From contig JAGVVD010000027.1 in assembly GCA_019135865.1 (NCBI GenBank), forward strand, positions 1 to 42,199: DNA of 42,199 nucleotides, written 5' to 3'. The stretch's first letter is position 1. Every line of letters begins with the position of its first letter. The position numbers and the translations under genes are program-made. Positions 6,856 to 23,573 of the stretch are shown in pieces. A model generated the notes under the pieces. It was not told the DNA's origin. It saw only the letters and a list, made by a program, of their open reading frames with translations, and searched no databases. The stretch is from Elusimicrobiota bacterium (GTDB lineage Bacteria > Elusimicrobiota > Elusimicrobia > Elusimicrobiales > UBA9959).

Positions 6856-6992
6856 TTGTTGCAAAATCTGCAACAAGTGATAGCACGATGACGTCTTTGT
6901 TCCTATGGGCGGGGCGTAGCGGAATCAAAAACTGCAACCGATGGTTGCAGAAATGGCCTTGGTCCGCAATTCTCGCACCATCGGTGCGAGAA
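6856..6992. repeat. Palindromic unit array A (three hairpins)
   Basis: Three perfect palindromes lie in this gene-free stretch: TTGTTGCA/TGCAACAA (6856-6876), CTGCAACC-GAT-GGTTGCAG (6932-6950) and TTCTCGCACC/GGTGCGAGAA around ATC (6970-6992). The last two share a three-base loop and a downstream AGAAAT flank, and the last has an upstream CGCAAT. Stem sequences differ while pairing is kept. They match array B (9731-10060) and the in-frame palindromes of the YhcG-family gene (22721-22846). Confidence 0.75.
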
Positions 6993-7005: not shown

Positions 7006-7038
7006 CGACACTACGTTGTCGCGCGGGTGTTTTACACT
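7006..7038 (+). promoter_or_regulatory. Conserved inverted repeat plus -10, copy 2
   Basis: CGACA, CTACGT, TGTCG (7006-7021) is followed after exactly 10 nt by TACACT (7033-7038). Transcription to the right would run antisense through the small RNA gene at 7047-7139 and on towards the XRE gene at 7244. The short frame opening at 7041 is not conserved in the second copy of the adjoining repeat, so it is not called as a gene. Confidence 0.45.
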
Positions 7039-7046
7039 AAATGAAG

Positions 7047-9730: not shown

Positions 9731-10060
9731 ATGCCAAGTTACTTGGCATTTAATGTACGCCTAAAAACAAGGCGGCTGAGCCGCTACACGGCGGCTTTAG
9801 AATAGTTCCCAGGGCACCTTGGACCTTTAGACCGCGCGCATCAGGTAGCCAAATCTCTAACCATTGGTTGGAGAAACTGCCACCATTGGTGGCAGAAATA
9901 GGCTGCCGCAATTCTCTCACCAGCGGTGAGAGAAATAAGTCCGGCCCGCAATTATTGCACCAACGGTGCAAGAAATTGCCGGGGGCGGTGTAGGAGGTTT
10001 GAAATCACAATTTGTGACTTCAAGATCGGGCCGTCTAAGGTCACAGGCTGTGACCTTAGA
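9731..10060. repeat. Palindromic unit array B (about eight hairpins)
   Basis: This gene-free stretch is almost entirely palindromes: 9731-9749 (ATGCCAAGT/ACTTGGCAT), 9772-9784 (GCGGCT/AGCCGC), 9854-9874, 9877-9895 (CTGCCACC-ATT-GGTGGCAG), 9912-9934 (10-bp arms around AGC), 9955-9971 (TTGCACC-AAC-GGTGCAA), 10001-10021 and 10034-10060 (13-bp arms). Most have a three-base loop inside ACC...GGT or ACA...TGT and an AGAAAT flank, and two begin CCGCAATT. The stems are all different but self-complementary. The unit resembles array A and the palindromes inside the YhcG-family gene. Confidence 0.8.
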
Positions 10061-10079
10061 CTCTGCGGGCGCGGCGTGA

Positions 10080-22376: not shown

Positions 22377-22409
22377 CGACACTACCCTGTCGCGGGGGTG
22401 CTTTACACT
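22377..22409 (+). promoter_or_regulatory. Conserved inverted repeat plus -10, copy 3
   Basis: CGACA, CTACCC, TGTCG (22377-22392) with CCCCC/GGGGG flanks, then exactly 10 nt, then TACACT (22404-22409). It drives the YhcG-family gene, which here has a short leader and a ribosome binding site (GGGGGAG). Confidence 0.55.
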
Positions 22410-22424
22410 ATTTGCGGGGGAGAT

Positions 22425-23573
22425 ATGGAAAAATTATTCGCCCGTGATAAAAATTATAGCTCCTGGCTGGCCGGGCTGAAGGAGCGGATACGCGCCGCGC
22501 AATTGAAGGCCGCCCTGACGGTCAACAGGCAGCTGCTGGAGTTCTATTGGTCGCTCGGCTCCGATATCGTGGAAAAGCAATCCCGCGCGAATTGGGGGGA
22601 CAAACTGATAGAACGGCTGAGCCGGGATCTTTTGCGGGAATTCCCTGGAATCAAGGGATTCTCCCGCAGTAATTTGATGTACGTTAAGAAGTGGTACTTA
22701 TTTTATGCGGAGAGCGGGGCAATTGTCCAACAAGTTGTTGGACAATTTAAAGAAGGGGCCTCCAGGAGGAGGGCAATTGGTCGACAGCCTGTTGATCAAT
22801 TGGGATACTCCCGCGGTAATGACGAATTAGCGCAACGGCCTGTTGCACCAATATTCAATATCCCATGGGGACATAATATCGCCATAATTTCAAAGTGCGG
22901 GGACGTAGAAGAAGCGCTTTATTACGCGCGCTGCGCGGCCGGGAACAACTGGAGCCGCAGCGTCCTGGTCCATCGGATCGAAACCGGCGCTTACAGGCGC
23001 AGGAGAGCTCCGGCCAATAATTTTTCCTCGACGCTGCCGGCGCCGCAATCGGACCTGGCGCGCCAGGCGCTAAAAGACCCCTATGTCTTCGATTTTCTGG
23101 AGCTGGGCGAAGAGCACACCGAGCGCGAATTGGAGACCGGACTGGTATCGCATTTTGCCAGGCTTCTCCTTGAGCTGGGGGCGGGGTTTTCCTATCTCGG
23201 CAGGCAGGTCCCCGTCAGGGTGGGTTGCCGGGATTTTTTTATGGATCTCCTGTTTTATCACGTGAAACTGCATTGCTATGTGGTGGTCGAGCTTAAGGCC
23301 GTCGATTTCGAGCCGGAACATGCGGGGAAACTGAATTTTTACCTGAAGGCCGTGGATGAGAAATTCCGGACCGAAGGGGACAATCCCGCCATCGGGATAT
23401 TGATATGCAAGAACAAGGACAAAGTAGTGGTTGAGTACGCTCTGGCCGATATAAGAAAGCCTATCGGGGTGGCGGATTATCGGCTGGCGCATACTCTGCC
23501 GAAAAAGTTGCGGTCGGGGCTGCCAAGCGCGGCTGAGATGGAGAGACGGCTGCGGCGCGGAGAGAAGGGCTGA
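22425..23573 (+). CDS. YhcG-family (DUF1016) PD-(D/E)XK nuclease
   Basis: A 382-residue protein of the YhcG/DUF1016 family. The N-terminal domain shows LKERIRAAQLKAALTVNRQLLEFYWSLGSDI and GFSRSNLMYVKKWY; then comes the conserved PWGHN...WSRSVLVHRIE and TLPAPQSDLARQALKDPYVFDFL. The C-terminal nuclease core is CRDFFMDLLFYH followed by CYVVVELK. Family members occur in islands and are predicted to act with restriction or defence systems. The linker before PWGHN (residues ~98-142) is longer than in E. coli YhcG and is encoded by three DNA palindromes. The ATG at 22425 follows GGGGGAGAT. It is flanked by a repeat-containing promoter and the pxp genes. Confidence 0.88.
   Translation: MEKLFARDKNYSSWLAGLKERIRAAQLKAALTVNRQLLEFYWSLGSDIVEKQSRANWGDKLIERLSRDLLREFPGIKGFSRSNLMYVKKWYLFYAESGAIVQQVVGQFKEGASRRRAIGRQPVDQLGYSRGNDELAQRPVAPIFNIPWGHNIAIISKCGDVEEALYYARCAAGNNWSRSVLVHRIETGAYRRRRAPANNFSSTLPAPQSDLARQALKDPYVFDFLELGEEHTERELETGLVSHFARLLLELGAGFSYLGRQVPVRVGCRDFFMDLLFYHVKLHCYVVVELKAVDFEPEHAGKLNFYLKAVDEKFRTEGDNPAIGILICKNKDKVVVEYALADIRKPIGVADYRLAHTLPKKLRSGLPSAAEMERRLRRGEKG
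22721..22846 (+). repeat. In-frame palindromic units inside the YhcG-family gene (array C)
   Basis: Three palindromes lie in the coding sequence: AATTGTCCAACA/TGTTGGACAATT around AGT (22721-22747), AATTGGTCGACA/TGTTGATCAATT around GCC (22775-22801, two G-T pairs) and GCAACG/TGTTGC around GCC (22832-22846). The first two are preceded by GC, giving GCAATT as in the intergenic units. The encoded peptides share the pattern A-I-x-x-Q-x-V-x-Q-(F/L). Confidence 0.85.

Follow-up and report, generated by a model that had tools for sequence, protein, structure and literature searches.

Why should the coding sequence of a predicted nuclease contain palindromes, and how do these relate to the palindromes that lie between genes elsewhere on the same stretch of DNA? 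The question arises from 42,199 nt of an Elusimicrobiota genome (contig JAGVVD010000027.1; hereafter the window). The product of the gene concerned matches PF17761 at 3.7e-38 and PF06250 at 1.5e-61 in Pfam (DUF1016_N and YhcG_C, 131 and 207 bits against a cut-off of 33) and the PADLOC defence candidate PDC-S02 at 3.5e-141. It is the sole YhcG copy of the genome.

22378..22410, forward strand: promoter-like leader with a GACA-N6-TGTC dyad, upstream of YhcG; a second copy lies at 7007-7039, after array 1
22425..23573, forward strand: YhcG-family gene, 382 aa, with DUF1016_N and YhcG_C PD-(D/E)XK nuclease domains (Pfam, PADLOC)
22721..22747, forward strand: in-gene unit 1, AATTGTCCAACAA-g-TTGTTGGACAATT, perfect
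22774..22802, forward strand: in-gene unit 2, CAATTGGTCGACA-gcc-TGTTGATCAATTG, 13 pairs including 2 G.T
22826..22852, forward strand: in-gene unit 3, decayed, 10 of 13 pairs Watson-Crick by inspection

Together the three hairpin units encode the linker of the protein (22721-22852), ahead of the PWGHN motif. Unit 1 is a 27-nt perfect palindrome with 13-bp arms and a 1-nt centre (DNA fold z -4.9), unit 2 has a 3-nt loop (z -3.6), and unit 3 is by itself not significant (z -0.9). All synonymous-codon shuffles of this gene gave arms of 8 bp or less, as compared to the observed 13 bp. The linker palindromes described in the first-pass annotation are thus real by fold, by codon shuffles and by the family survey below, which extends them well beyond this gene; the proposed expansion of units within the gene is also supported. 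The exact full-length leader pattern occurs in the genome only at the two listed positions, and a shorter, looser core pattern adds a third match on another contig. The leader dyad, CGACACTACnnTGTCG...TTTTACACTA, is genus-specific, also precedes an ssb-like gene and sits between divergent genes (L349, L353, L354); it could be an SOS-type operator.

The survey covered 117 distinct YhcG reading frames from many phyla, drawn both from named genomes and from those near that of the window. Palindromes whose centre is 1 or 3 nt long are concentrated at a single location, immediately ahead of the PWGHN/SWSH motif, and 107 of the 117 genes carry a unit there. The consensus is AATT-N4-(A/C/G)ACA-N1-3-TGT-N4'-AATT, with an N3 centre in the common form and an N4 that is free in sequence yet complementary. 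The best arms measure 9-18 bp in 75 of the genes, whereas synonymous shuffles average 5.5 bp and reach 9 in any of 20 trials for only 14 of the 117. Relaxed units number 150 in 10.7 kb of linker versus 137 in the remaining 119 kb of YhcG gene sequence. Of 827 kb around YhcG genes, the 93 kb that fall in YhcG frames contain arms of at least 12 bp 39 times, and the remaining 733 kb nine times. Between genes, the density of palindromes drops about fivefold beyond 600 nt from a YhcG gene, on small numbers (7 and 9). Units are also present in distant plasmid and phage members with very different peptides (Klebsiella, Proteus, Rhodococcus, a planctomycete and Wolbachia phage WO). By the criteria used, 10 of the 117 genes and 3 of 11 distant ones are without a unit, and several genes that lack long perfect arms are near-palindromes. 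The number of linker units, which the first-pass annotation had proposed to compare, differs among homologues.

So that no palindrome was chosen by eye, 74 genes were anchored on a protein motif alone. The arms defined in this way pair at 0.88, as compared to 0.459 +/- 0.012 when each gene is recoded from its own codon set, and to 0.18-0.35 with slid partners. This result bears out the earlier proposal that structure is kept while the stem sequence is free. Pairs 7-9 each use three Watson-Crick types and therefore co-vary, and units of a single gene have different N4 stems. The residues encoded by the two arms are coupled as well (mutual information 0.99, whereas shuffles reach at most 0.67; control residue pairs also lie slightly above their own shuffles, as expected among related sequences). 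The family shows a protein sequence that evolves under DNA self-complementarity. The AATT ends encode the I and L of a family-wide motif, and part of their conservation may be protein-driven. Because its position is constant from phylum to phylum and nearly all members have kept it, the unit is, as judged from sequence comparison, an ancient part of the gene rather than the tolerated coding insertion of the initial view.

The yhcG gene of E. coli K-12 contains three units, of which one has arms of 15 bp, and is followed, 15 nt past its stop codon, by a fourth; beyond these four, the surrounding 20-kb K-12 stretch has no arms of at least 9 bp. Alleles carry three, two or one unit depending on the strain. 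Between alleles, CGCC/GGCG has changed to CTCC/GGAG in both arms of one unit, which is a compensatory change. In several strains yhcG stops inside the main palindrome (match 1-406) and unrelated sequence follows (e.g. L168 2878-2906). These truncations were not counted as evidence for site-specific recombination: the two examined end at an IS1 element or beside replaced sequence.

Between genes, the window contains two arrays, at 6932-6992 and 9855-10061.

6932..6950, forward strand: YhcG-type unit CTGCAACC-gat-GGTTGCAG; similar block in sister species G001
6970..6992, forward strand: YhcG-type unit TTCTCGCACC-atc-GGTGCGAGAA, intergenic (genome pattern scan, fold)
9855..9873, forward strand: YhcG-type unit CTCTAACC-att-GGTTGGAG, intergenic; 9850-9876 matches the in-gene palindrome of YhcG in G001 at 96% identity
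9877..9895, forward strand: YhcG-type unit CTGCCACC-att-GGTGGCAG, intergenic
9912..9934, forward strand: YhcG-type unit TTCTCTCACC-agc-GGTGAGAGAA, intergenic (genome pattern scan, fold)
9952..9974, forward strand: YhcG-type unit TTATTGCACC-aac-GGTGCAAGAA, intergenic (genome pattern scan, fold)
9999..10023, forward strand: ORF6N-type unit TTGAAATCACAA-t-TTGTGACTTCAA, intergenic; this type is also found within ORF6N genes
10033..10061, forward strand: ORF6N-type unit GTCTAAGGTCACAG-g-CTGTGACCTTAGAC, intergenic; conserved in G001

The arrays had been thought to share the in-gene design. This holds for six units, in which GCAATT/AAAT, a variable stem, a 3-nt loop and AGAAAT follow each other; it does not hold for the two ORF6N-type units, nor for the palindromes at 6856-6876 and 9731-9749, which are of another design. 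Hairpins whose arms reach 8 bp or more number 32 in the window, versus 7-14 in Markov shuffles. The 27 nt of array sequence that are nearly identical to the YhcG palindrome of the sister species support the view that in-gene and intergenic units form one family. The suggested peptide likeness is real too: KLPPLVAEIG, read from the intergenic sequence, is similar to KLQPLVAEIGW, a linker that a different YhcG subfamily has in related genomes. Two-unit blocks of the arrays are found again in G000 and G001 at 77-84% identity, and in G001 both array types lie near YhcG, ORF6N and AbiE genes. Array 2 is near-identical between the sister species over its whole length, so that units and spacers offer no readable contrast in conservation. 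Two DUF3800-V RNAs (Rfam RF02964; 7045-7142 and 9560-9653, both reverse strand) lie in direct repeats that flank an XRE / ORF6N-like / AbiE cassette; the second is absent from G001, which gives the appearance of an empty site.

The second palindrome type sits at one fixed position of ORF6N genes (e.g. AACTTGAGGTTTCAA-a-TTGAAACCTCAAGTT); in 33 of 60 genes the arms there reach 9 bp or more. On viral contigs it also occurs outside ORF6N genes, including upstream of phage genes. In two cases it lies in frame in a phage-nuclease-like gene (KLEVSICDLKT; L191 9018 and L202 9568). From these sequences the ORF6N type looks more mobile than the YhcG type.

How may such a site work? We favor the explanation, at somewhat less than even confidence, that the palindrome acts in cis as a DNA hairpin (cruciform) site within the YhcG coding sequence, probably read by YhcG itself. 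The site lies in the loop immediately ahead of PWGHN/SWSH and combines constant AATT ends and an (A/C/G)ACA...TGT centre with a self-complementary N4. A reader of this site would ignore N4, since N4 stems differ among units of one gene. The strand would then have to fold, because a duplex-binding protein that does not read N4 gains nothing from a complementary N4. The folded form would be DNA and not mRNA, given that sense-strand G-U tolerance is absent. With less certainty, the putative reader would be the YhcG protein: it is the sure companion of the site in E. coli, Rhodococcus, Chlamydiae and the Wolbachia phage, and its nuclease domain resembles NucS/EndoMS in our fold search and, in PMC1189080, Holliday-junction resolvases. 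That paper describes the YhcG/DUF1016 family as predicted PD-(D/E)XK nucleases that are also related to DUF91. The fold matches are weak (NucS/EndoMS among the top matches, best E 5.7e-4, TMq 0.20; model pTM 0.43), and a sequence search for a solved structure of a YhcG protein returned none. Residues 99-138 of the linker have pLDDT below 50 and are predicted to form a disordered loop; the protein therefore seems, in this model, to tolerate the linker rather than to need its fold. YhcG would act on the folded site by binding or nicking, both in its own gene and in the neighboring arrays; the likely result would be autoregulation, or else these defence loci would undergo recombination and turnover. 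An argument against YhcG as the reader is that ORF6N genes, with their different palindrome, would need a separate one. In its fullest form, this explanation describes a nuclease gene with an in-frame, barcode-like hairpin that is recognized as folded DNA by the gene's own product, with array copies that have accumulated and a parallel ORF6N system; this combination we regard as doubtful.

Alternatively, the palindrome could be a mobile element akin to RPE or REP sequences that enters YhcG and ORF6N loops in frame, as well as nearby intergenic DNA, and is moved by another enzyme such as a Y1 transposase. The occurrence of units inside and between genes, the ORF6N-type units ahead of phage genes and within an unrelated gene for a phage nuclease, the variable unit number in E. 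coli and the two-unit blocks shared with G000 and G001 agree with this idea, and Y1 transposases are common in relatives. However, the palindromes that flank those transposases, AAAAGGTNNC/GNNACCTTTT, are a separate family (L241, L242, L245, L238). These palindromes and the ORF6N-type unit have GGTNNC in common. The pattern AATTN5ACCN3GGTN5AANT, which imposes no self-complementarity, matches three times in the 2.95-Mb genome, always within the arrays and always with a self-complementary inner stem; neither a 294-kb sample of the genome nor pattern scans for this ACC/GGT form revealed dispersed copies. Across 199 genomes, the window stem was seen again in just 1 of the 198 others of the phylum. 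The commonest YhcG stem had no match in viral contigs, and its coding matches are confined to YhcG genes. Since the ACC/GGT form is restricted to the arrays and stems hardly recur, recent genome-wide spread of the YhcG-type unit is not supported by these sequences, and the dispersed, Rickettsia-like element of the first-pass annotation finds no backing. With a position that is fixed across phyla, we consider mobility an unlikely explanation.

A duplex operator for a homodimeric protein, whose arms co-vary as both half-sites must match, is quite unlikely. Perfect dyads, the sequence-specific persistence of AATT and ACA/TGT where the host is GC-rich and the location of units near gene ends would fit, but one protein facing differing N4 stems in one gene would leave N4 unread and duplex symmetry unneeded; the 1- or 3-nt centre also spaces the arms as in a hairpin.

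An RNA hairpin for autoregulation, in the mRNA or in an antisense transcript, is improbable, although single strands of the units can fold (DNA parameters). Mismatches at stem pairs 6-9 comprise 11 G.U and 32 A.C, which is the reverse of what a sense RNA hairpin should give and unlike conserved RNA stems. This absence of a sense-strand G-U preference favors, at the level of sequence, DNA over the mRNA of the gene; the earlier suggestion of DNA or RNA hairpins can be narrowed towards DNA. The A.C excess would equally suit an antisense RNA hairpin, in which these mismatches become G-U pairs. An Rfam search left the units unmatched and returned only the DUF3800-V RNAs that adjoin the arrays.

It is very improbable that the palindrome is ancient, has no function and owes its perfection to template switching (quasi-palindrome correction). 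Perfect arms of free sequence, coupled changes within E. coli and intermediates with a single mismatch, for example the GCGC/GCGA hybrids (L068, L070, L084), are what this process would leave behind. Yet the arms should then drift with genome composition, whereas in 20 GC-rich (high-GC3) YhcG genes the units have a GC3 of 0.35 versus 0.75 expected, with 20 of 20 below expectation; the intergenic copies and the constant ends and centre are left unexplained. Finally, pure protein constraint with palindromic codons by coincidence has next to no chance: one subfamily does conserve an IxQQxVxQL motif, but synonymous recoding, which pairs 46% as compared to 88% observed, refutes this idea, and unrelated subfamily peptides (RILVSLIREL, PKSQKPSGFL, PIRDAVRHEL) are palindromic too.

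The palindromes reveal a signal at the DNA level that had been overlooked in a very common, uncharacterised candidate defence nuclease, E. coli K-12 yhcG included. With a defined substrate to hand, the function of YhcG, and perhaps that of ORF6N proteins, becomes directly testable.

Literature searches for palindromes with DUF1016, YhcG or ORF6N found no description, and the passages of the YhcG/DUF1016 family literature covered nowhere mention a coding palindrome. Among known systems, the integron attC core (RYYYAAC/GTTRRRY) fits some unit stems by inspection and does not fit many others. PARCEL elements are tandem coding repeats with dyad symmetry and variable sequence (PMC2996958). These are amphipathic 25-residue repeats (DUF285), partly in surface proteins, whereas YhcG units encode about 10 residues in the disordered loop of one nuclease family, and the YhcG protein of the window shows YhcG domains only. 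REP elements are short palindromes of 20-40 bp, at times clustered and some intragenic (PMC3733652). In contrast to REP/RAYT systems, which combine a foot tag with a linked Y1 transposase, YhcG-type units, those of the arrays included, lack the GTAG/CGTC tag and are not present in high copy. RPEs are palindromes found in frame in protein genes and between genes (PMC4316617, PMC3733652), and YhcG-type units likewise occur in both settings. RPEs are selfish elements of about 100-150 nt with many similar copies at many unrelated sites, as opposed to three exact matches in 2.95 Mb, in the two arrays only; YhcG units measure 27-33 nt, occupy the same place in a single gene family from phylum to phylum, and have non-recurring stems.
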